From the NCBI GenBank assembly GCA_016928995.1, contig JAFGJS010000052.1, forward strand, positions 1 through 17,653: a stretch of 17,653 nt of DNA, in the 5' to 3' direction. The position numbers and the translations under genes are program-made. The notes beneath the pieces are model-generated. The model saw only the letters and a program-made list of their open reading frames with translations. It did no database searches and was not told the DNA's origin. Shown one piece after another: positions 2,616 to 17,205 of the stretch (position 1 is its first letter; the number at the start of each line of letters is the position of its first letter). The DNA is from Candidatus Sumerlaeota bacterium. GTDB lineage: Bacteria > Sumerlaeota > Sumerlaeia > JAFGJS01.

Positions 2616-2652
2616 CCGCGCTTAGGCCAATGAGCATTGGCGGATGATTCCG
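2607..2652. promoter_or_regulatory. Nested palindrome, candidate bio operator
   Basis: A perfect 12-bp inverted repeat, CGGAATCATCCG (2607-2618) and CGGATGATTCCG (2641-2652). Each arm is itself a small palindrome, CGGA-N4-TCCG. Between them lies a third inverted repeat, CCAAT-GAGC-ATTGG (2627-2640). The arm centres are 34 bp apart, about three helical turns. It covers the predicted -10 and start of transcription. It does not match the BirA operator as I know it. Confidence 0.5.
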
Positions 2653-2679
2653 GCGTTAGCCGATCTGCGGGGACAGGGA

Positions 2680-3750
2680 ATGACGGTTTGTTTTCAGGAA
2701 TATGCGGCAAAAGTGACGCAGGGCAAGGCGCTTTCGCGCGAGGAATGCCGCGAAATCCTCCACGCGCCCAATGAGCGATTGTTGGCGCTGCTCGACGCGG
2801 CGTATCAGGTCCGTCGGCATTTTTGCGGCGGCAAGGTGCACATCCAGGTGCTGTCGAACGCCAAGAGCGGCAAGTGCCAGGAGGATTGCCATTATTGCTC
2901 GCAATCGAAGGTCTCCACGGCGGACGTGAAGCAGTACCCCTTGCTGGACCAGGAGACGCTGCTGGAGGAGGCCGGTCGGGCGAAACGCCTGCGGGCGAAG
3001 CGCTATTGCATGGCGATGAGCGGGCGCGGCCCCAGCGACCGGGAGATCGATAAACTCTGCGACGTGCTGCGCGCCATCAAGCAAAAGCATGACATTTCAC
3101 TCTGTTGCTCTCTCGGGTTGATGACGCTGGAGCAGGCGCGGCGGCTCAAGGAAGCCGGGCTGAATCGCGTCAATCACAACCTGAACACCAGCCAAAGCCA
3201 TCATCCGCAGATCTGCACCACGCACACCTACCAGGATCGTCTGCAAACGCTGCGAAACTGCCGCGAGGCCGGGCTGGAGCTGTGCTCCGGCGGGATCATC
3301 GGCCAGGGCGAGTCGGACGAGGACATCATCGACTTCGCGCTGGCGCTGGCCGAGCTTCGCCCCGAGTCGATCCCGATCAACTTCCTGATTCCCATCGAGG
3401 GAACGCCGTTCGCCGGAATGGACACCGGTCTGACGCCGCAGCGTTGCCTGAAGGTGTTGTGCCTGATGCGGCTCATGATTCCCGACCGCGAACTGCGCAT
3501 GGCCGGCGGACGCGAATATCATCTGCGCAGCTTGCAGCCGCTGGCGCTGTATCCCTGCAACTCGCTGTTCGTCACGGGCTACCTCACGACGCCCGGTCAG
3601 CGCGGCGACGAGGCGCTGCGGATGATCCGCGACATGGGCTTCGAGATGGAATTTGAGGAGCAGCCGGACGAAGCGTTGCAGGCGGCGCTGGAAAGCGATC
3701 AGAACGGCCTGCCGGTGACGCATTCGGCTAAAATCGCGGGGGCAGAATAG
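2680..3750 (+). CDS. bioB: Biotin synthase BioB
   Basis: A radical SAM enzyme that inserts sulfur into dethiobiotin, the last step of biotin synthesis. With ATG 2680 the protein has 356 residues, close to the usual length. The radical SAM cluster motif CxxxCxxC is at Cys66, Cys70 and Cys73 (KCQEDCHYCSQS). The second, sulfur-donating [2Fe-2S] cluster would use Cys110 (YCMAMSGRGPS), Cys142 or 143, Cys202 (LCSGGIIGQGE) and Arg273 (LRMAGGRE). NHNLNTS and IPIEGTPF are also typical. An in-frame ATG at 2644 exists but lies within the palindrome arm and lacks a good ribosome site; GGGGA precedes 2680 by 6 bases. It stands apart from the tightly packed rest of the biotin genes, separated by a repeat-filled gap of 274 bases. 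Confidence 0.95.
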   Translation: MTVCFQEYAAKVTQGKALSREECREILHAPNERLLALLDAAYQVRRHFCGGKVHIQVLSNAKSGKCQEDCHYCSQSKVSTADVKQYPLLDQETLLEEAGRAKRLRAKRYCMAMSGRGPSDREIDKLCDVLRAIKQKHDISLCCSLGLMTLEQARRLKEAGLNRVNHNLNTSQSHHPQICTTHTYQDRLQTLRNCREAGLELCSGGIIGQGESDEDIIDFALALAELRPESIPINFLIPIEGTPFAGMDTGLTPQRCLKVLCLMRLMIPDRELRMAGGREYHLRSLQPLALYPCNSLFVTGYLTTPGQRGDEALRMIRDMGFEMEFEEQPDEALQAALESDQNGLPVTHSAKIAGAE

Positions 3751-3764
3751 ATTATATTGCTCAC

Positions 3765-3830
3765 ACAAAGGCACGAAGACACAAAGGACCTAAATTTTAG
3801 ACAGGATTAACGAGATAAACCGGATTTTTT
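3765..3830 (+). repeat. Composite inverted repeat, left half
   Basis: Two blocks: 3765-3790 (ACAAAGGCACGAAGACACAA, then AGGACC) and 3800-3830 (GACAGGATTAACGAGATAAA, then CCGG and a T run). Both recur in inverted orientation and in mirrored order at 3929-3996. The blocks resemble dispersed intergenic repeats known from many environmental genomes (recalled, not searched). Confidence 0.7.
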
Positions 3831-3928
3831 CAATGGCACTTACAGAAAAAACGCCGCCACTATCATGGATCGCCAAAGCAGGAAATAAAAGCGCTGTCAT
3901 TTTTTTTCTTTTGTTTTAGCACATAATA

Positions 3929-3996
3929 AAAATATCCAGTCAATCCTGTTCATCCTGTCAAAAAAAAATCGGTTCTTTGCGCCTCCGCGCCTTTGC
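3929..3996 (-). repeat. Composite inverted repeat, right half
   Basis: Reverse complement of the left half. Block 1 (3971-3996) matches at 20 of 26 positions and all six differences are A/G transitions. Block 2 (3929-3959) matches at about 23 of 31. The 98-base spacer (3831-3928) is AT-rich and holds no gene I can support. The transcript could fold into a long cruciform-like structure between bioB and bioF. Confidence 0.7.
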
Positions 3997-4024
3997 GTTA
4001 AAATAATTTTCTGCTGAAATAACC

Positions 4025-5188
4025 ATGACATCCTTCGAACATGAAATGAACGCCATTCGGGAAAAGGGATTGCTGCGCTCCTTGCGCAGCCTGCCGGCCA
4101 CAGGCGGCAAATTCCAATGGCAGGACCGCGAGCTGCTTAACTTTTCCTCGAACGACTACCTCGATCTGGCCAATGACGAACGGTTGAAGCAGGCCGGGCG
4201 CGAGGCGCTGGAGCGCTGGGGCGGCGGCGCCACGGCCTCCCGCTTGATGTCCGGCACGCTGGACCTGCACACCGAACTGGAAGCCCGCCTTGCGGCCGTC
4301 ACGGGACAGGAAACGGCGCTGGTTTTCGGCAGCGGCTTCCTGACCAATCTGGGCCTTCTCAGCGCGCTGACCGGCAAGGACGACGCGATCTTCGCGGACA
4401 AACTGAACCACGCCAGCCTGGTGGACGGCGCGCGCTTCAGCGAGGCGCGCATGATCCGCTATCATCATCTGAAACTCGATAATCTGGAGAAAATGCTGCG
4501 CGAAACCGAATGCGCTGGCCGCCGATGGATCGCATCCGATTCGATCTTCAGCATGGACGGCGATCTGGCGGACGTGGCCGGCCTGCAACGTCTGGCGCAG
4601 GCCTCGGGCGCGACGTTATTGCTCGATGAAGCGCACGCCGTAGGCATCCTGGGCGAGCGCGGCGGCGGCCTTTGCCGCATTTCCGGCCAGCCGGTTGTGC
4701 CCGCGATCACCGTCGGCACCTTCAGCAAGGCGTTGGGCAGCTATGGCGGATTCGCCGCCTGCTCGCATGAAATTCGCGACTTTTTGATCAACCGCGCGCG
4801 GCCGTTTATTTATTCCACGGCGCTGCCGCCGGTCTGCGCGGCCTGCGCCCTGCGTGCGCTGCAGATCATCGAGGAAGAACCAGGATTGGGCGCGGAGCTC
4901 CTGCGCCGCGCGGAGTTCATGAAAGACGCCCTGCGCGCGCAGGGCCTAGAGGTGATGTCGTCCGCGTCGCAGATCATTCCGATTTTCGTTGGCGACAATG
5001 AGCAAGCCGTGGCTCTCGCGGACCGGCTGCTCGATCAGGGCATCCTCGCCACGGCGATCCGTCCACCCACGGTGCCGCCCGGCACGGCGCGCATCCGGCT
5101 GTCCGTCACGCTGGCGCACAGCGAGCAGGATCTGTCGCGCGCGGCGGAAGTCATCGCCAAAACCGTGAAACAGGCAGGCGCCGCATGA
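4025..5188 (+). CDS. bioF: 8-amino-7-oxononanoate synthase BioF
   Basis: A PLP-dependent enzyme that condenses pimeloyl-ACP (or -CoA) with L-alanine to give 8-amino-7-oxononanoate (KAPA). It has 387 residues, the normal size. The PLP lysine is Lys235 in TFSKALGSYGG. The cofactor-binding DEAHAVG is at residues 201-207, and the glycine-rich GGGATASRLMSG and SNDYLDLA segments near the N-terminus are classic for the alpha-oxoamine synthase family. ATG 4025 gives the typical N-terminus (SFEHEMNAIREKGLLRSL), though no strong ribosome site is visible before it. The stop codon overlaps the next start as ATGA (5185-5188), so the following gene is probably translationally coupled. Confidence 0.95.
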   Translation: MTSFEHEMNAIREKGLLRSLRSLPATGGKFQWQDRELLNFSSNDYLDLANDERLKQAGREALERWGGGATASRLMSGTLDLHTELEARLAAVTGQETALVFGSGFLTNLGLLSALTGKDDAIFADKLNHASLVDGARFSEARMIRYHHLKLDNLEKMLRETECAGRRWIASDSIFSMDGDLADVAGLQRLAQASGATLLLDEAHAVGILGERGGGLCRISGQPVVPAITVGTFSKALGSYGGFAACSHEIRDFLINRARPFIYSTALPPVCAACALRALQIIEEEPGLGAELLRRAEFMKDALRAQGLEVMSSASQIIPIFVGDNEQAVALADRLLDQGILATAIRPPTVPPGTARIRLSVTLAHSEQDLSRAAEVIAKTVKQAGAA

Positions 5189-5868
5189 AACGAAAAACGC
5201 TACTGCTGGCGGGCTGGGGCATGCATTCGGATGTCTGGCGTCCCTTGATCGAGCGGCTGGATGCGCAGATCGATCCTGTGCTGCTGGAATGGAACGGCGC
5301 CGTGCGCTCCGATCCGCCGGAGCTGCCCGGCGTGGAATGCGCCATCGGCTGGTCGCTGGGCGCGATGAAGCTGATCGAGTGGATCGCGCAACGACGTATC
5401 GCGCCATCGCGGCTGATCCTGCTCTCTTGTGGCGCATCGATGGCCTGCCGCGACGACGTACCCGGCGTTCATCCCCGGATTTTGCAGCGCATGCGCAAGA
5501 AACTGAGCGGCGAAAAGGCGGCGGTGCTGGATGATTTTTTCAAGAATGTGTTATATCCTTCCAATGATACAAACGCGACGAAGCCGTTGCTGGAGCGCGC
5601 CGTGCAATTTCCCGTGGCGGATTTGGAGGTGGGGCTGGATTATCTGATCAACGTTGATCTGCGCACGTCGCTGGACGCCATCACGATGCCGGCGCTGATG
5701 CTGCACGGCGATCAGGATCGCATTTTGCCGGTCGAAGCGGGAGAATGGTTGCAAAAGCAGATCCCGCAGGCACAATGGAGCATTCTGGCGGGACAGGGCC
5801 ATGCCCTGCCGCTTTCCGCCGCGGATGAAGCCGCGCGTCAAATCCAGAAGTTTCTCGAACATGGTTAA
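5185..5868 (+). CDS. bioH: Pimeloyl-ACP methyl ester esterase, BioH-like alpha/beta hydrolase
   Basis: Predicted to cleave the methyl ester of pimeloyl-ACP made by the BioC route, which ends chain elongation and frees the substrate for BioF. At 227 residues it is somewhat shorter than E. coli BioH (about 256). The oxyanion-region motif AGWGMHSDVW opens the protein; the nucleophile elbow is GWSLGAM with Ser57; Asp178 sits in HGDQDRILP; His206 sits in GQGHALP. That is a full catalytic triad. Position between bioF and bioC supports the role strongly. BioG, BioK and related esterases do the same job, and sequence alone cannot fully separate them, but the GWGMHSxVW and GWSLG signatures fit BioH best. 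It overlaps bioF by 4 bases and bioC by 8. Confidence 0.87.
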   Translation: MKRKTLLLAGWGMHSDVWRPLIERLDAQIDPVLLEWNGAVRSDPPELPGVECAIGWSLGAMKLIEWIAQRRIAPSRLILLSCGASMACRDDVPGVHPRILQRMRKKLSGEKAAVLDDFFKNVLYPSNDTNATKPLLERAVQFPVADLEVGLDYLINVDLRTSLDAITMPALMLHGDQDRILPVEAGEWLQKQIPQAQWSILAGQGHALPLSAADEAARQIQKFLEHG

Positions 5869-6655
5869 CATCGATCGATCCATTGTCAGTCAGAATTTTT
5901 CCGCCGCCGCGCGCAACTACGACCGCTGGGCTAAGCCCCAGTTGGAAATCGCCAAGCTGTTGCGGGAGTTGGCGCCTTCCGGCGCGGCGCCGGAGCGGAT
6001 TTTGGACGTAGGTTGCGGCGCCGGCTTTCTGACGCGGCTGCTGCGCGAACGCTATCCCGAGTCGCAGATTCACGGCATTGATCTGGCGCCCGGCATGATC
6101 GAGCTTTGCCGCGAACGCTTTCAGCACGACGCGCGCATGGACTTCAGCATCGCCGACGCTATGAGCTGGGATCCGGATGCGGCGTATGATCTGACGGCGG
6201 CGAGCTGCTGCGTGCAATGGCTGGGCGATCCGGCCGATTGGCTGCCGCGCTTCAGGGCCTGGCTGCGTCCGGACGGCGCAATGCTCGTGTCGATCCTGCT
6301 GCCCGGCACGTTCCGCGAGCTCCGGGCGAGCTACAGCGCCGTGTGCGGCGAAACGCTGACCGGACCGGAGTTGTTCCCGGAGGAATATCACCACGAAGCC
6401 TGGGACGCCATCGCGCTGAAATGCATCGAGGCGAAACGGGAAACCCATGTTTTCTTTTATCCATCCGCGCGAGACGTGCTGGCGTATTTCAAAAAGATCG
6501 GCGTGGCCATGAGCCGTCATCCGGGAAATTCGCCCTTGCCATATGGACGAATCAAGCGTTTGCTGGAATACTATACAACGCATTTCACGGACGCGGCTGG
6601 AAACGCAGCCTGCACGTACGACGTCCTGTATGCGCTGCTGGAGAAACCATCATGA
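5861..6655 (+). CDS. bioC: Malonyl-ACP O-methyltransferase BioC
   Basis: A SAM-dependent methyltransferase that methylates malonyl-ACP, so that fatty acid synthesis enzymes can build the pimeloyl chain. The protein has 264 residues from ATG 5861. The start VNIDRSIVSQNFSAAARNYD is typical of BioC. The SAM-binding motif I is ILDVGCGAGFLT (residues 47-58), followed by GIDLAPGMIELCRERF; VQWLGDPADWLPRFRAWLRP is the usual motif region after the core. The frame is open further upstream, but that lies inside bioH and lacks homology. It overlaps bioH (stop 5868) by 8 bases and bioD by 4 (ATGA at 6652-6655). With the BioH-like gene next door it makes a complete E. coli-type pimelate module. Confidence 0.92.
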   Translation: MVNIDRSIVSQNFSAAARNYDRWAKPQLEIAKLLRELAPSGAAPERILDVGCGAGFLTRLLRERYPESQIHGIDLAPGMIELCRERFQHDARMDFSIADAMSWDPDAAYDLTAASCCVQWLGDPADWLPRFRAWLRPDGAMLVSILLPGTFRELRASYSAVCGETLTGPELFPEEYHHEAWDAIALKCIEAKRETHVFFYPSARDVLAYFKKIGVAMSRHPGNSPLPYGRIKRLLEYYTTHFTDAAGNAACTYDVLYALLEKPS

Positions 6656-7383
6656 GCGGATTGATCATCGCCGGAACCGGCACGGACGTGGGCAAGACCT
6701 TTGTCGCCGCGGCCATCCTGCGCTATTTGCGCGACGCCGGATGCGACGCCGTTCCAATGAAGCCCGTGCAAACCGGCTGCCGCATGCTCGCCTCGGGCGC
6801 GTGGGAAGTTCCCGACCTTGATTTCGTTTTGCGCGCCAGCGCAATGCAGCCGCCGGCCGACGAGCGGCGCTGGATGGCGCCCTTCGTGTACCGGGAGGCC
6901 TGTTCGCCGCATCTGGCCGCGCGCATGAGCAACGAGGCGCCGCCCGATGCCGGCCGGATTATCTCCTGCGCCGGGATGTTGCTGGCCAAACATGACGCGC
7001 TGCTCGTGGAATTGGCCGGAGGCTTGATGGTTCCGCTGAACGACGCGCAGACTAACCTGGACCTGATGATCGCGCTGAAATTTCCCGTTGTGCTGGTCGC
7101 CTTGCCGGGGCTTGGCACAATCAACCACACGCTGCTTTCCATCGAGGCGATCCGCCGCGCCGGACTGGAACTCCTCGGCGTCATCATCTGCGCGCCGGAA
7201 CCGGTTGCAGCGAATGCCGCCACGGAGGATAATCCCGCCGCCATCGCGCAATTTGGCCGCACGGAAATTCTGGGAAACATCCCGCATCAATCAAAACTCG
7301 ATTGGCCGAAGACCGCGAAGAGCATCCCCGGACTGGAAACAATCCGACGGCGCTTGATTCAAGACAATGGAGCAAATGCATGA
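6652..7383 (+). CDS. bioD: Dethiobiotin synthetase BioD
   Basis: An ATP-dependent carboxylase that closes the ureido ring of 7,8-diaminononanoate (DAPA) to form dethiobiotin. It has 243 residues. The P-loop GTGTDVGKT (residues 8-16) and the substrate-region PMKPVQTGC (Lys37) are diagnostic. YREACSPHLAA, VELAGGLMVPL and GLGTINHTLLSIEAI fill the expected later positions; VELAGG replaces the more common VEGAGG. The start is ATG 6652, overlapping the bioC stop; a longer in-frame reading upstream is only the open shadow frame of bioC. The stop (7381-7383) overlaps the bioA start. Confidence 0.94.
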   Translation: MSGLIIAGTGTDVGKTFVAAAILRYLRDAGCDAVPMKPVQTGCRMLASGAWEVPDLDFVLRASAMQPPADERRWMAPFVYREACSPHLAARMSNEAPPDAGRIISCAGMLLAKHDALLVELAGGLMVPLNDAQTNLDLMIALKFPVVLVALPGLGTINHTLLSIEAIRRAGLELLGVIICAPEPVAANAATEDNPAAIAQFGRTEILGNIPHQSKLDWPKTAKSIPGLETIRRRLIQDNGANA

Positions 7384-8720
7384 CTCAGCAGGACTGGAAA
7401 GCGCGGGACATCCAGCATCTCTGGCATCCCTACACGGACATTGAGCAGTTCGAGCAGAGCGCGGTGTACATGCTGATCGAGCGCGCCGAAGGCGTCTATC
7501 TCTACGAGCAAGGCGGACGGCGCCTGCTCGACGGCATCGCCTCGTGGTGGTGCGTGAACCTGGGCCACAGCCATCCGCGCCTCGTGCAGGCGATCCAGCG
7601 GCAGGCCGCGCAGCTCCAGCATTGCATCCTCGGCGGCATGTCGCATCAGCCGGCGATTGAACTGGCCGAACGCCTGGCACAGCTGGCGCCGGGCGAACTG
7701 AACCACGTGTTTTTTTGCAGCGACGGTTGCAGCGCCGTGGAGGCCGCGCTGAAGATCGCCGCGCAATACTGGGATAACATCGGCGAGAGCGGACGGAACG
7801 CCTTCGTCTGCCTGACCGACGGCTATCACGGCGACACGCTCGGCGCGGTCAGCGTCGGTTTTGTCGATGCGTTTCATCGCCCGTTCAAGCAGATCGTGCT
7901 GCAAAACCATCGCGCCCTTTCGCCGCACTGCAACCAATGTCCGATGGGCAAGGTGCCGGAGACTTGCGGCGTCGAATGCTTTCAGTCGATGGAAAATTTG
8001 ATCCGCGAGCACCACGAGCGGATCGTGGCAGTGATTCTCGAACCACTCTGCCAGGGCGCCGCGGGCATGCGGATCTATCCCGATGAATATCTGCGCCAGG
8101 CGCGGCGGCTGTGCGATGAGTACAACCTGCCGCTGATTTGCGATGAAATCGCCGTCGGCTTCGGCCGCACCGGCTCGCTGTTCGCCTCTAATCACGCCGG
8201 CATCGAGCCGGACATCATCACGGTCGGCAAGGGACTCACGGGCGGCTACATGCCGCTGAGCGCGACGATCGTGCGGACAAAAATCTACGACAGCTTCCGC
8301 AATGCGCTGGATCAACCCGCCGGCCAGAACCGCACGTTTTTTCACGGCCATACGTTCACCGGCAATCCGATCACCTGTGCCTGCGCGCTGGCCGCGCTGG
8401 ATGTTTATCGCGAGACCGGGGTCATCGAGCGACTCGCGCCGCGCATCGCCCAGCTGGAGCAAGGTTTCGCGGCCATCGCTCAAAAGCTTCCCGGCTCCAA
8501 AACCCGCTGCCTGGGCATGATCGGCATGGTGGAAATCTTCCCGGAAAGCCAAGGCGCCGCGCGCGCCAGGCGCATCGTCCAAGCCGCGTATGAACGCGGA
8601 CTATTCATCCGCCCGCTGGGGAACGTCCTGTATCTCTGGCCTCCGTTGATCTCAACGGAGCAGGAACTCGCCCAAATGATCGAAATCCTGCTCGACTCCA
8701 TTGAGTCCTGCGACTCGTAA
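7380..8720 (+). CDS. bioA: Adenosylmethionine-8-amino-7-oxononanoate aminotransferase BioA
   Basis: A class III PLP aminotransferase that converts KAPA to DAPA, usually with SAM as amino donor. It has 446 residues. HLWHPYTDI at the N-terminus, LLDGIASWWCVNLGHSHP, the PLP-phosphate loop SDGCSAVEAALK, CDEIAVGFGRTG (Asp255) and the PLP lysine Lys284 in TVGKGLTGGYMP are all present, as is GHTFTGNPITCACALAAL. A four-Cys stretch (Cys184, 187, 196, 200) resembles an insert I recall in a BioA subgroup and might bind metal. The start is ATG 7380, with GGAG 7 bases upstream, overlapping bioD by 4 bases. It ends the biotin cluster; no clear terminator is visible after it. Confidence 0.95.
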   Translation: MTQQDWKARDIQHLWHPYTDIEQFEQSAVYMLIERAEGVYLYEQGGRRLLDGIASWWCVNLGHSHPRLVQAIQRQAAQLQHCILGGMSHQPAIELAERLAQLAPGELNHVFFCSDGCSAVEAALKIAAQYWDNIGESGRNAFVCLTDGYHGDTLGAVSVGFVDAFHRPFKQIVLQNHRALSPHCNQCPMGKVPETCGVECFQSMENLIREHHERIVAVILEPLCQGAAGMRIYPDEYLRQARRLCDEYNLPLICDEIAVGFGRTGSLFASNHAGIEPDIITVGKGLTGGYMPLSATIVRTKIYDSFRNALDQPAGQNRTFFHGHTFTGNPITCACALAALDVYRETGVIERLAPRIAQLEQGFAAIAQKLPGSKTRCLGMIGMVEIFPESQGAARARRIVQAAYERGLFIRPLGNVLYLWPPLISTEQELAQMIEILLDSIESCDS

Positions 8721-12249: not shown

Positions 12250-12279
12250 TTGACAAATGAGGGGTATTTGAGGCATAAT
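12250..12279 (+). promoter_or_regulatory. Strong promoter of the MshEN gene
   Basis: A perfect TTGACA (12250-12255), an 18-base spacer and CATAAT (12274-12279). The -10 covers an in-frame ATG at 12278, so the transcript would begin after it, near 12286. This decides the start of the downstream gene in favour of 12335. Confidence 0.75.
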
Positions 12280-12334
12280 GAATACTTGCAGTGGAATCAC
12301 GGATGGAATTGCCGGGCAAAGGCGGGAAGGCATC

Positions 12335-13066
12335 ATGGACGATTTGCTGTTTAGCTCGGGCGACTATTGGGGCGGGGATCATGAGCGCAGGCGAGTGTTG
12401 CATGACCGTCTGCGGCGCTTGCAGCATTTTGTGCAGGAAGCCAAACGGCTTTCCGAATTAATCCTCAACGACCCATCGTTGCCCGAGCTCGAGGTTAAGC
12501 GTTATGAGGACGCCCTGAACCAGCTGTTGCGATTGGATCTCACCGGCCGCAACCGCAATCGCAACGTGCTGGATGAAAACGCGCCGATCCAGTTTGACAT
12601 CAGCATGCGGTCGCGGGCGCGAAAGGCTTCCAAACTCAGCCTGGAGTGGATCCTCAAAAAAGCAGGGCTGCTCACGCGGAAGGAACTGGACCAGATCAAG
12701 GAGGAACTCAAGCGCAATCCGGAAGAAAATCTGGTGCAGGCGTTGAAACGGCGCCGCCAGCTCAGCGACCGGGAAATTTTAAACGCCGTGGCGAAGGAAC
12801 TGCAGCTGGAGATGATCGACCTGCGCCAGGCGCAGATTTCTCCGGCCACGCTGGCGCTGGTGCCCCCGAGCGTGGTGAAGGAATTCAAGGTGCTGCCAGT
12901 GCGGGAAGAAGGCGATACGATCTATATCGCGCTGTCCGATCCCCTGGATGTGCAGTTGCAGGACGATCTGGAAATGATCTTGCAGCGGCGCGTGACGGCC
13001 GTGCTGGCCAGCGATGCGGATATTGAGCTGGCGATCCAGCGATATTACGAAAACGGCGAAAACTGA
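12335..13066 (+). CDS. Stand-alone MshEN/GspE N-terminal domain protein
   Basis: A 243-residue protein without an ATPase domain. Residues 1-95 are charged and probably helical and I do not recognise them. Residues about 98-238 match the N-terminal domain of GspE/PilB/MshE ATPases (LSLEWILKKAGLLTRKEL; then EFKVLPVREEGDTIYIALSD, PLDVQLQDDLE, ASDADIELAIQRYY). Over the last 62 residues about 39 are identical to the N-terminal domain of the PilB-like protein encoded next. Some MshEN domains bind c-di-GMP through RLGxxL...G motifs; here LS replaces LG, so binding is doubtful. The start at ATG 12335 has GGGAAGG four bases before it, and an earlier ATG lies in the promoter -10. It is probably a partner, assembly factor or regulator of the pilus/secretion motor. 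Confidence 0.8.
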   Translation: MDDLLFSSGDYWGGDHERRRVLHDRLRRLQHFVQEAKRLSELILNDPSLPELEVKRYEDALNQLLRLDLTGRNRNRNVLDENAPIQFDISMRSRARKASKLSLEWILKKAGLLTRKELDQIKEELKRNPEENLVQALKRRRQLSDREILNAVAKELQLEMIDLRQAQISPATLALVPPSVVKEFKVLPVREEGDTIYIALSDPLDVQLQDDLEMILQRRVTAVLASDADIELAIQRYYENGEN

Positions 13067-13090
13067 TTTCGCGGTGAAATCCCGTTTTTT
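13065..13090 (+). terminator. Weak intrinsic terminator candidate
   Basis: GATTTC (13065-13070) pairs with GAAATC (13076-13081), loop GCGGT, followed by CCG and six T. The stem is short and AT-rich and begins within the stop codon of the MshEN gene, so readthrough into the ATPase gene is likely. Confidence 0.4.
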
Positions 13091-13118
13091 ATGCTGGCAA
13101 TCCGTCTCAAACGGCCCA

Positions 13119-13124
13119 TATAAT
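13119..13124 (+). promoter_or_regulatory. Perfect TATAAT -10 upstream of the ATPase gene
   Basis: TATAAT lies about 100 bases before ATG 13224. No good -35 is seen at 16-18 bases (TGGCAA is nearest), so it would need an activator or be weak. Confidence 0.4.
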
Positions 13125-13223
13125 TAATGTATCAAAATCGCGCTACGAGCGGTTCTTTTTTCTGGCGGTTTGATTTCGAACAACGCCGGTAAAGAGTCAT
13201 TTTATCAGTTTGAGGAATCTCGC

Positions 13224-15158
13224 ATGGTTTTCGGGCGGCGTAAAAAGAAACAAAAAGATCAAGAGAATCAATCCGATAAGCAGGGATCTGGCAAAGGGCC
13301 GGATATTCTGCCGCCGCATCAGCAAGGCGCCGCGATGCGCGACACCTTCGACACCCTGCAGGACTGGGGCGCGCCGCTGGAGGATGCCCCGCCGATTGAA
13401 CCGATGGAGTCAGGCGCACGCAGCAAAACCGCAAAACTCACCCCTTCGCTCGGCACAATCCTGGAAGAAGCGGGATTGGTGAGCACCGAAATGATCCAGT
13501 CCATCATGAACGACCGTGTGCGCGGCGAAGAGGCTGGCTCGCTCAAAAGCACCCTGATTGAAAAAGGCCTTGTCCGCGAAGAAGACATCATGGACGCCAT
13601 CGCGGAGGAGATGGGGCTGGTAAAGATCGAGCTGCACACCCTGCGCCCCAGCAAGGACCTGATCGAAGCCATCGACGTCAAAGTCGCCAAGCAATACAAG
13701 GTTTTCCCCGTGCGCAACGAGGAAGACGCGATTTACGTCGCGCTTTCCGATCCCCTGAACGTGCAGGTTCAGGACGACCTGGAGCGCATTCTGCAAAAGC
13801 GCGTCGTGACGATGATCGCCTCGGAGGGCGAGATCGACCGCGCCATCGCGCGCTATTACGAAAAAGACGAGATCCTGGACGCCATCGAGAAGGTGACCGA
13901 CAAAGTGCATGAAGAGATGGGCCTGGCGGGCGACGAATGGGATCAGAAAATCGTGATCGACGACGACATCCCGGCCGAAGAACTCCCCGCCGTGGTGCGC
14001 TTCATCGACCTGATCTTCCGCATGGCCGTGCATGAAAAGGCCTCGGATATTCACATCGAACCGGCGAAAAACACAACAAACATCCGCTTCCGCGTGGACG
14101 GCGTGCTGCATGAAATCCCCTCGCCGCCCAAACGCTGGGAGCGCTCCATCATTTCGCGGCTCAAGGTGCTTTCCCGCATGGACCTGGCGGAAAAACGCAT
14201 TCCACAGGACGGCCGCATCAAACTGGACATCACGGATAAAAACCTCGACTTGCGCGTCTCGGCCCTGCCCACGATTCACGGCGCGGAGTCGGTCGTCATG
14301 CGTATTTTGGATCAGGAATCTGTCTTGCTGGGCTTGGAAGACGTCGGTTTCCTGCCGCGCAACATCGCGATTTTCGAAAGATTAATCCGCACGCCCACCG
14401 GCATCATCCTCATGACCGGACCGACCGGTTCGGGCAAGACCACCACGCTGTACGCCGCGCTGGGCACGCTGAACTCGCCGGAAACGAAACTCGTGACGAT
14501 CGAGGATCCGGTCGAGTACATGCTGGAAGGCATCATCCAGGTGCAGATCAATCCGGCGGCGGACGTGACCTTCTCCACCGGCCTGCGCACGATCCTGCGC
14601 CAATCGCCGGACGTGATTCTCGTCGGCGAGATCCGCGACATGGAGACCGCCGAAATCGCAATTCGCGCCGCGCTCACCGGCCACTTGGTGTTCAGCACGC
14701 TCCACACCAACGACGCAGCCACGGCTCCCGTGCGTCTGATCGACATGGGCGTCAAGCCCTATCTCGTGGCTTCATCGCTGGCCGCCGCCATCGCGCAACG
14801 TCTGGTGCGCCGCGTCTGCAGCCATTGCAAGAAGCCCTATGCGCCCACTCCGCAGGAACTGATCGATATGGGCGTGGATCCGAACGAATACGCCGAACAT
14901 GAATTTTTCCACGGTTCGGGCTGCGAGCGTTGCGGCCAGTCGGGCTATCGCGGCCGCACGGCGATCCATGAGATCTTCATGCCCGAAGGCGAGACGAAAC
15001 AGATGATCCTGCGCAGCATGCCCGGCAGCAAAATCAAGATCAAAGCCGTGGAGCAAGGCATGCTGACCTTGCGCATGGACGGTTTCGAAAAGGCGAAGAT
15101 GGGCACAACAACCCTCACCGAGGTGATCCGCATCACCGGCATGGACGAGGCCGAGTAA
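13224..15158 (+). CDS. pilB: Type IV pilus/type II secretion assembly ATPase (PilB/GspE family)
   Basis: A hexameric motor ATPase at the inner membrane that drives pilus or pseudopilus assembly. It has 644 residues from ATG 13224, chosen because GAGGA lies 7 bases upstream; a TTG at 13170 is a poorer choice. Residues 1-75 are a Lys/Gln/Pro-rich linker (GRRKKKQK). Residues about 73-215 form an MshEN domain (PSLGTILEEAGLVSTEM, KVFPVRNEEDAIYVALSDPL). The ATPase core has Walker A GPTGSGKTT (399-407), Asp box VTIEDPVEY (424-432), Walker B region VILVGEIRD with Glu469, and His box TGHLVFSTLHTND (485-497). Four zinc-binding Cys are Cys532, 535, 567 and 570. PilB and GspE are hard to separate; the absence of gsp genes nearby gives no help. 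Confidence 0.9.
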   Translation: MVFGRRKKKQKDQENQSDKQGSGKGPDILPPHQQGAAMRDTFDTLQDWGAPLEDAPPIEPMESGARSKTAKLTPSLGTILEEAGLVSTEMIQSIMNDRVRGEEAGSLKSTLIEKGLVREEDIMDAIAEEMGLVKIELHTLRPSKDLIEAIDVKVAKQYKVFPVRNEEDAIYVALSDPLNVQVQDDLERILQKRVVTMIASEGEIDRAIARYYEKDEILDAIEKVTDKVHEEMGLAGDEWDQKIVIDDDIPAEELPAVVRFIDLIFRMAVHEKASDIHIEPAKNTTNIRFRVDGVLHEIPSPPKRWERSIISRLKVLSRMDLAEKRIPQDGRIKLDITDKNLDLRVSALPTIHGAESVVMRILDQESVLLGLEDVGFLPRNIAIFERLIRTPTGIILMTGPTGSGKTTTLYAALGTLNSPETKLVTIEDPVEYMLEGIIQVQINPAADVTFSTGLRTILRQSPDVILVGEIRDMETAEIAIRAALTGHLVFSTLHTNDAATAPVRLIDMGVKPYLVASSLAAAIAQRLVRRVCSHCKKPYAPTPQELIDMGVDPNEYAEHEFFHGSGCERCGQSGYRGRTAIHEIFMPEGETKQMILRSMPGSKIKIKAVEQGMLTLRMDGFEKAKMGTTTLTEVIRITGMDEAE

Positions 15159-15166
15159 TAATCATC

Positions 15167-15219
15167 GGAAAGTCTGTTTGCCTGAATTGGCTTGCCGCGC
15201 ATCCCCAGCCTTAAATCGC
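15167..15219 (+). repeat. Direct repeat, left copy, bordering the three-gene block
   Basis: GGAAAGTCTGTTTG (15167-15180), 22 bases, then CCCCAGCCTTA (15203-15213), AAT and CGCCA (15215-15219 region). The same blocks in the same order occur at 17617-17652. The right end overlaps the stop codon of the XRE-cyclase gene. Confidence 0.45.
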
Positions 15220-15945
15220 CAGTTCTTGGATGCGCACAGGGCGGCTGAAATTTTTAAACGTCACGCTCTTGATTTTACCACGAACGAATTCCTGGGCGTA
15301 TTGCTCCGCTGTGGCCGCCGTGGCCGCCGCGCCCGACTTGGCTTGTTCATCCGCCCAGTTCATCGTCAGGAAGCCCAGGTTCACCGTCTCCCCCATGATA
15401 TCGGGTCGCGCATAATCCGGATGCCCGATCTTGCCGAGATAAATCTCGCCGCTGCTCAGGCCGATCTTCAGCATCTTCGGCTCGCTGATCAGTTCCCGCG
15501 CCAGACGCGCGGCCTCCAGCGCGCGCAAGGCGTGATGCAATCCGGAAAAAAAACAGAGAAATTCATCGCCCATGTATTTGATCGGCACACCGTCGTGACG
15601 CAGAGCCGCCTCGCTGACCTGGTACAAAATCCCATTGGCCCAGGCGGCATAGTCCCGCGGCGGCATGCCGACCGACTTGCCATACGCCCCATGCAGGCTT
15701 GAGACGAATACCGTAGCCTCGAACACGTCCAGATCCTGATCATACGCCCCCAGCAGCCAGTCCAGCGACACGCCCAGCAACTTGGAGAGCGTCGGCAGCA
15801 GCGTGATATCCGGACCGTTCTCGCCGCGCTCCCATTTCGACACCGCCTGCGGACTGATCTGCAACGCATGCGCAATGTCGTTTTGCTTCAAGCCGCGCTT
15901 CTCGCGCGACTCCCGGATCCGCCGCCCCAAATCCGCCAGCAACAT
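15211..15945 (-). CDS. XRE-type HTH regulator fused to a degenerate class III nucleotidyl cyclase domain
   Basis: A 244-residue protein. Residues about 5-64 are an XRE/Cro-type helix-turn-helix (LGRRIRESREKRGLKQNDIA, then ISPQAVSKWERGENGPD and LSKLLGVSLDWLLG). Residues about 75-235 resemble a class III adenylate/guanylate cyclase domain: IKYMGDEFLCFF (Lys123, Asp127), IGLSSGEIYLGKIG, then RPDIMGETVNL (Asp182, Asn189). Spacing matches mycobacterial Rv1625c: metal Asp to Asp 44, Lys to Asp 4, Asp to Asn 7. But the first metal Asp is Ser83 and the transition-state Arg is Leu193, so catalysis is unlikely; the domain may sense a nucleotide. The start ATG has GAGGA 6 bases upstream. It lies 39 bases after the rhodanese gene and is probably co-transcribed with it. 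Confidence 0.8.
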   Translation of the reverse strand: MLLADLGRRIRESREKRGLKQNDIAHALQISPQAVSKWERGENGPDITLLPTLSKLLGVSLDWLLGAYDQDLDVFEATVFVSSLHGAYGKSVGMPPRDYAAWANGILYQVSEAALRHDGVPIKYMGDEFLCFFSGLHHALRALEAARLARELISEPKMLKIGLSSGEIYLGKIGHPDYARPDIMGETVNLGFLTMNWADEQAKSGAAATAATAEQYAQEFVRGKIKSVTFKNFSRPVRIQELAI

Positions 15946-15984: not shown

Positions 15985-17046
15985 TCAGATTTCCGTGCTC
16001 CCTGGAGTGCGCCGGGGCTGCGCGTTCGGGCGCGCGGGAGCGATGCGATGCTTGGGCAATTCCGCGCCCTGGCGCAACACGGGCAGCCGCTCATCCGCCG
16101 ACCATTCGATCCAGCTGTGCTCATAGACGCTGACGTTGTTAAACCCCATCGCAACGAGCGTATAGGCCGCGAGAAACGCCCGGCTTCCGTCGTGACTGTA
16201 AACGCAAACGCGCTTGCCTTTTGAAATCCCGGCTTTGTCCAGCAACCGCGAGAGTTCCGAATAGTAGCGCAGCTGGTAATGCCCATACTCGCGAAAGATA
16301 TTTTCGAGCGGAAAGTTCACCGCGCCGCGGATGTGTCCAGCGCGCATGACATGCGGCAAAATCACCTCGCCCTTGTATTCCTCTTCCGTCCGGCAATCCC
16401 AAAGCACGAAATCCTCCGGCTGATCGCGCACCTCGGCCAGCAAGCGGTCACGGGTCCACAGCGCCTCCATCCGCGGATTCGCTGTGTAGCTGGCCGGCTC
16501 GCGGAAGGCGGTGTTGAAATCCACCGGGAGTCCCGCGTCGATCCAAAATTCCATCACATCCCCGTCCACCACGTGCAGTTTTTCATGCCCCAGCCAATAA
16601 AGAACGTATGCCGCAAAAAGACTCTCATATGACTCGCTAGGATTTCCGTACACGTAAATATCGTTTTCCGGCGTGACGCCGAAAAGGCCGAGCATCGACT
16701 CATAACGCCCGGCGCTCCAGACCGCATCCGGCGATTGATTCAGACGATACATAAAGAAATTCGGCTCGCCCTCGCGCCACTTTGCGATCGGCATATTCAC
16801 CGCACCCGGCAGATGGCCCTCCTTGTACTTCTCCGCGGCTCGCCCGTCGATTAAAACAACTGAAGGATCGGTGTAACGATGCCGCAATTCTTCGGCACTG
16901 ACAAACATCCCTGATCGGGGAAACGCGTCAAAACCGGTCTTCAGCGGCAATCCATACGGCCCGCGACTCGTGGCGGCGCACGAGCATAAAATCAATCCAG
17001 TGGCCAGCAATGCGCCGATGTTAAGATACATCCGTGTTCGCTTCAT
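15985..17046 (-). CDS. Double-rhodanese lipoprotein lacking the catalytic cysteine
   Basis: A 353-residue protein with an N-terminal signal (MKRTRMYLNIGALLATGLIL) and lipobox LCSC (Cys23), so probably a membrane-anchored lipoprotein. Two rhodanese domains follow: about 45-180 (VVLIDGRAAEKYKEGHLPGA, YVYGNPSESYES) and about 195-330 (DFVLWDCRTEEEYKGEV, AGHIRGAVNFP, YSHDGSRAFLAAYTL, SWIEWSADERLP). As in other SseA-like two-domain sulfurtransferases the first domain lacks the Cys. Unusually, the second active loop also has Ser284 where the catalytic Cys belongs (YSHDGSRA). Codon AGT differs from TGT by one base. A role in binding or sensing is more likely than sulfur transfer. ATG 17046 has GAGAGG upstream; a longer reading to 17166 would bury the signal peptide. 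Confidence 0.85.
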   Translation of the reverse strand: MKRTRMYLNIGALLATGLILCSCAATSRGPYGLPLKTGFDAFPRSGMFVSAEELRHRYTDPSVVLIDGRAAEKYKEGHLPGAVNMPIAKWREGEPNFFMYRLNQSPDAVWSAGRYESMLGLFGVTPENDIYVYGNPSESYESLFAAYVLYWLGHEKLHVVDGDVMEFWIDAGLPVDFNTAFREPASYTANPRMEALWTRDRLLAEVRDQPEDFVLWDCRTEEEYKGEVILPHVMRAGHIRGAVNFPLENIFREYGHYQLRYYSELSRLLDKAGISKGKRVCVYSHDGSRAFLAAYTLVAMGFNNVSVYEHSWIEWSADERLPVLRQGAELPKHRIAPARPNAQPRRTPGSTEI

Positions 17047-17205
17047 GACGACCGCCTCTCCAAAGATAGGCCTATTCCCCGAATTCCGCGCAGCACAGTC
17101 CGCGCCGCCCGGCGATGGAAATCCCTCATGCAATTGAAACCTAGACCAATCACACGAGGCAGGCAATAAGAAAGAACAGCGCCTTTGCCGATCGCCGAAG
17201 AATGC

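Follow-up and report, generated by a model that had tools for sequence, protein, structure and literature searches.

SahR is the ArsR-family, SAH-responsive regulator of Proteobacteria, where SAH is S-adenosylhomocysteine. Its core regulon comprises sahR, ahcY (S-adenosylhomocysteine hydrolase), metH, metF, metK and at times metE (PMC4239095). The SAH riboswitch likewise places ahcY operons under the control of SAH (PMC4239095). In Mycobacterium a cyclase homology domain is joined to a LuxR-type helix-turn-helix (HTH) in proteins such as Rv2488c and Rv0386, an arrangement restricted to that genus within the Actinobacteria; Rv0386 is an active cyclase, and no link to ahcY is made in PMC3466318. 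Hence, the fusion of a cyclase domain to an HTH is not new as such (PMC3466318). The main text of a 2004 cyclase survey (PMC2447327) has no passage on HTH fusions.

The window, by which we mean the whole 17,653-nucleotide stretch of Candidatus Sumerlaeota DNA analyzed, encodes a 244-residue protein that shares features with each of these systems. Its family resembles SahR in having nearly the same predicted targets (its own gene, ahcY, metF, metK and at times metE) and a predicted dimer operator at ahcY, but SahR has an ArsR DNA-binding and ligand domain, a 20-bp palindrome and no cyclase domain. As the domains differ, the window protein would work like SahR but is no SahR. The Mycobacterium proteins have the nearest layout, a cyclase domain plus an HTH, although the HTH is of the LuxR rather than the XRE type. 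The class III cyclases (CyaC, Cya2, CyaB and Rv1625c) share the fold (Z about 21) together with the Lys, Asp, Asn and second metal Asp residues, whereas the present family has lost the first metal Asp and mostly the Arg, carries an N-terminal XRE HTH and has other target genes. Lambda CI and P22 C2 have an XRE HTH and bind as paired dimers with one beside the −35 box, but their C-terminal domain and targets are different.

The regulator gene (15211..15945, on the minus strand, which the first-pass annotation had left unstated) is single-copy in its own genome by genome search, and directly couples the two domains in one open reading frame, as the first-pass annotation had proposed. The DNA-binding domain (residues 10–64; 15754..15918, minus strand) matches Pfam HTH_3 with an E value of 2e-16 and a score of 60.2 bits against a gathering cut-off of 23, in agreement with the XRE type first assigned to it. 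Pfam gave no match of the protein to GerE, the LuxR-type HTH, and the HTH is N-terminal; Pfam and NCBIfam returned XRE families and no ArsR family. The remainder (residues 70–244; 15214..15738, minus strand) is a degenerate class III cyclase domain by predicted structure, profile and alignment. According to the annotation, moreover, no described regulator family is known to have this XRE plus cyclase layout. This was borne out by a search of openly licensed papers, in which XRE plus cyclase plus ahcY, or degenerate cyclase regulators, gave no family description.

A gene for a two-domain rhodanese-like sulfurtransferase lipoprotein (15985..17166, minus strand; Pfam/NCBIfam domains) lies 39 bp upstream of the regulator gene on the same strand. 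Possibly the two are co-transcribed, in the window's genome only; the rhodanese-like gene is not a conserved neighbor of the regulator across the family. On the other side are two consecutive plus-strand genes with a pilus/type II secretion ATPase N-terminal domain (12278–15158), the second of which codes for a complete ATPase and is convergent with the regulator gene. Elsewhere in the window, translations indicate an ordinary biotin cluster (2644–8720, plus strand) of bioB, bioF, a bioH/bioG-like gene, bioC, bioD and bioA, and short open reading frames at the contig edge (7–671) resemble phage lysis or membrane proteins, possibly a prophage remnant.

Searched on its own sequence, the cyclase domain matched weakly, with an E value of 0.021 under the Pfam cut-off and of 9e-5 to PDB chain 2w01. 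Against the PDB, the family profile returned the class III cyclases Cya2 (E 1.6e-14) and CyaB (1e-12). The AlphaFold model of the single chain had a pLDDT of 88.4, with loop 173–178 of low confidence, and Foldseek with this structure gave a cyclase match at E 1.7e-11. Residues 70–244 of the predicted structure superimposed on the cyclase domains of CyaC, CyaB, Ma1120 and Rv1900c with Z 20.7–21.5 and rmsd 2.0–2.5 Å, the VIA-align value for CyaC (1wc1) being Z 21.5 and 2.5 Å over 171 residues. Thus, the cyclase fold first suggested from sequence was upheld by both profile and structural comparison of the single chain.

The active-site register given by the first-pass annotation proved correct. 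Ser83 occupies the position of the first metal (Me1) Asp and the second, Asp127, is kept; Asn189 of the transition-state pair is kept and the Arg is Leu193; the adenine-specifying residues Lys123 and Asp182 are both present. Given these losses in the catalytic features, the protein should not be called a cyclase. Among the 29 homologues position 83 is T in 11, S in 9, G in 8 and D in one, and D127 is found in all 29. Position 123 is K in 20, R in eight and Q in one (G353), D182 is present in 28/29 and N189 in 27/28. The transition-state Arg position 193, readable in 28, is L in 13, I in 9, R in four (G369, G371, G372 and G353) and G in two. W102, N104, H175 and Y178 are invariant in the family alignment. 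Hence, the first metal site has been lost family-wide and the Arg in most members with the presumed adenine contacts kept, a pattern that, judged by the 29 homologues, exceeds chance. Residue conservation could also reflect fold stability.

The earlier proposal of catalytic loss with retention of base-recognition residues therefore holds across most of the 29 homologues, but G353, a divergent long-branch member, has the reverse pattern. It retains the two metal Asp residues as well as the Arg, a combination that, in a homologue making cyclic nucleotide, would by the first-pass annotation count against the proposal, yet has lost Lys123, Asp182 and Asn189 and so, on its residues, is not a normal cyclase either. 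The gene after the G353 regulator (L064, 5767–6201) encodes a Trm112-like zinc ribbon at its start and is cut short by the contig edge; its product may be a methyltransferase-related protein.

Two genomes from the same class have close relatives, with 61–63% identity, and two public contigs, one labeled Candidatus Latescibacterota, also carry close relatives. Profile searches of a sample of fewer than 1000 genomes, many of them metagenome bins, found the regulator in 15/64 genomes in the phylum of G041, 8/24 in that of G244 and 1/3 in that of G183. With the later additions G403 and G383, the family has 29 members in several phylum-level groups, all with both domains (a contig end truncates G334). 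Other cyclase matches in the same phylum (for example L004, L007, L010 and L017) were longer cyclase proteins without an XRE HTH and were set aside. A plasmid search gave matches to the HTH part only, none of which spanned 80% of the protein.

The next same-strand gene was ahcY in 22 of the 27 members having a readable downstream gene, a count that includes five called via cluster c9, an open reading frame antisense to ahcY, and leaves out G334 and G383, which end at a contig edge. Pfam or NCBIfam served to check the identities of AhcY, MetF, MetK, MetE and ThrC. Eight genomes in the phylum of G041 have metF after ahcY; metK is nearby in two. In G183 the regulator is followed next by metE, and in G333 and G339 by thrC, encoding threonine synthase, which stands at the branch point with methionine. 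The window locus is an exception in that no ahcY adjoins the regulator; the ahcY of its genome is on another contig. We also observed two AhcY forms in the phylum of G041 (L078–L083 and L166–L176), a long form of about 483 residues and a short form lacking query residues of about 158–200. The long form is present wherever the regulator abuts ahcY in this phylum; in the short-form genomes the regulator is absent or lies elsewhere, before thrC or an unclear open reading frame.

A CAAC-N9-ATTG dyad lies upstream of the family members in 23 of 27 genomes, against a mean of 0.09 in shuffles. Its flexible positions mirror between the halves (CAAYNRM...KYNRTTG), which is what a dimer site should show. 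In 21/24 sites another CAAC precedes the dyad at exactly 21 bp, with 0 or 1 occurrences at other offsets from 10 to 59. The best −10 hexamer is on average about 17 bp after the TTGNNN of the dyad, a spacing by which the dyad center would fall near −41 and the second, upstream site at around −62. The dyad right half overlaps the −35 hexamer, and these −35 hexamers (TTGNNN) are poor. No operator precedes the window's own regulator gene, and in G333 and G339 ahcY has no site. A riboswitch was rejected as the cause of the upstream conservation, as ten regulator loci gave no Rfam match to a SAH or SAM riboswitch, an RNA element, at the gathering threshold.

The operator was also present beyond the motif training set. 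G403 and G383 have sites scoring 21.1 and 24.8 bits, with ahcY following in G403, and the lone ahcY of the window's genome is preceded by CAACAATGGCGGGAGCGGGATCAACGGCGCGTTCATTG, with TAAAAT 17 bp after TTGCCC. Specificity in this 4.55-Mb genome was assessed by pattern search and reading of each locus. All 51 TCAACN9ATTG core sites were read, and double sites, those with the second CAAC at 21 bp, were found only at ahcY and glyA (serine hydroxymethyltransferase). At glyA the downstream dyad is CAACN9GTTG and TATAAT lies 16 bp after TTGCGT. The other 49 core sites are not double, most are inside open reading frames and some outscore the ahcY site, so we rejected the single motif as a specific marker. 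Targets are told apart by the double site alone.

Among 43 relatives lacking the regulator, scores across the 250 bp preceding ahcY peaked at 10.7, and none of the 43 reached 13; the double site was absent from all 44 ahcY loci in such relatives. The held-out comparison, 3/3 versus 0/43, gives a Fisher p of 6.6e-5, a value uncorrected for relatedness of the genomes, which are not independent samples. The AhcY proteins of G325 and G328 share 96–98% identity with the query, taken from a sister genome that has the regulator; both genomes lack the site-plus-regulator block, with both flanks recognizable when compared by eye. The ahcY leaders of G325, G328 and G329 (L151, L154 and L159), which have no regulator, contain another shared element, GATTGAC...GATAGTTGGTAACTTC. 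This GATTGAC...GATAGTTGGTAACTTC element occupies the place that the operator and regulator have in the sisters.

Gene context and sites together predict a regulon that includes ahcY and SAM-cycle genes. Taken with the common operator, the association with ahcY and the methyl cycle points to the pathway and to the likely ligand class; relatives were needed to see this association and operator, and both are absent from the first-pass annotation. That the window protein is a methyl-cycle regulator is very probable. On sequence-derived evidence, the whole reading, a one-component transcription factor of the SAM/methionine cycle that senses an adenine nucleoside through a dead cyclase domain, is probably correct. 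The cyclase domain would dimerize as in cyclases and hold its ligand without turnover via Lys123, Asp182 and Asn189, and perhaps via the family-specific Trp102, Asn104, His175 and Tyr178. An adenine nucleoside is the probable ligand, most likely SAH or adenosine and less likely SAM or ATP. Two points favor SAH and adenosine: the enzyme under control consumes SAH with release of adenosine, and the adenine contacts persist in a domain whose metal-triphosphate site is broken. Ligand binding would reset the two HTHs, and two dimers would lie next to each other at about −62 and −41. Positions of this kind are typical of class II and class I activator sites, as known from CRP and lambda CI, so activation is favored with reasonable confidence over repression, and a build-up of SAH would most likely activate ahcY and its partner genes.

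Speaking against this reading are the Arg at position 123 in eight members, the lack of Lys, Asp and Asn in G353, the ahcY genes of G333 and G339 without a site and the window regulator gene without an operator or a neighboring ahcY. A methyl-cycle repressor, the dimer of which would cover the −35 box until released by SAH or adenosine, fits the overlap of the dyad right half with the −35 hexamer, and auto-control of a regulator–ahcY operon is common among repressors. However, a fixed center near −41, preceded by a second site at a distance of two helical turns, would suit activators better, judging from CRP and lambda CI, as would the poor TTGNNN hexamers, and we regard a repressor as rather unlikely. 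In another variant of the methyl-cycle regulator, the cyclase domain would serve as a dimer scaffold or for protein binding, and any small-molecule ligand would be missing or unrelated to adenine. Pseudoenzyme domains can act as scaffolds, and the eight Lys-to-Arg members would be in keeping with this, but almost all members keep Lys/Arg, Asp and Asn while the Me1 Asp and the Arg drift, and the enzyme of the partner gene makes and breaks an adenine nucleoside. We consider the scaffold less likely still than the repressor.

The remaining two alternatives concern nucleotides. An energy or second-messenger sensor of ATP, AMP or cAMP, with methyl-cycle genes as incidental targets, could be argued from the ATP-binding parent fold and the invariant D127. 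Loss of the Me1 Asp in 28/29 members leaves the two-metal triphosphate site broken, however, and the targets are narrow, methyl-cycle and one-carbon genes, which makes such a sensor improbable. Least credible of all is a functional nucleotide cyclase whose active site departs from the norm. Although some class III enzymes tolerate non-canonical residues and G353 keeps both Asp residues and the Arg, the Me1 Asp is absent in 28/29 and the Arg in 24/28 members, and G353 itself lacks the Lys, Asp and Asn. We therefore retain the adenine nucleoside-sensing regulator as the best reading. Its extension to an undescribed family spanning several phyla, in which a non-catalytic cyclase receptor for SAH or adenosine controls ahcY and further methyl-cycle and one-carbon genes from operators paired at about −62 and −41, has somewhat better than even chances of being right.

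For the uncultured phyla concerned we found no described methionine regulator in the literature. If the reading is true, they would have another SAH-linked route of ahcY control, beside SahR and the SAH riboswitch, and the paired operator opens direct and inexpensive tests of it. Proteins called adenylate cyclases from their fold alone may be misnamed, and the Arg-keeping and Arg-less members are possible steps in the loss of catalysis. A fold that makes cAMP would then have been recast as a metabolite receptor with a direct connection to DNA.
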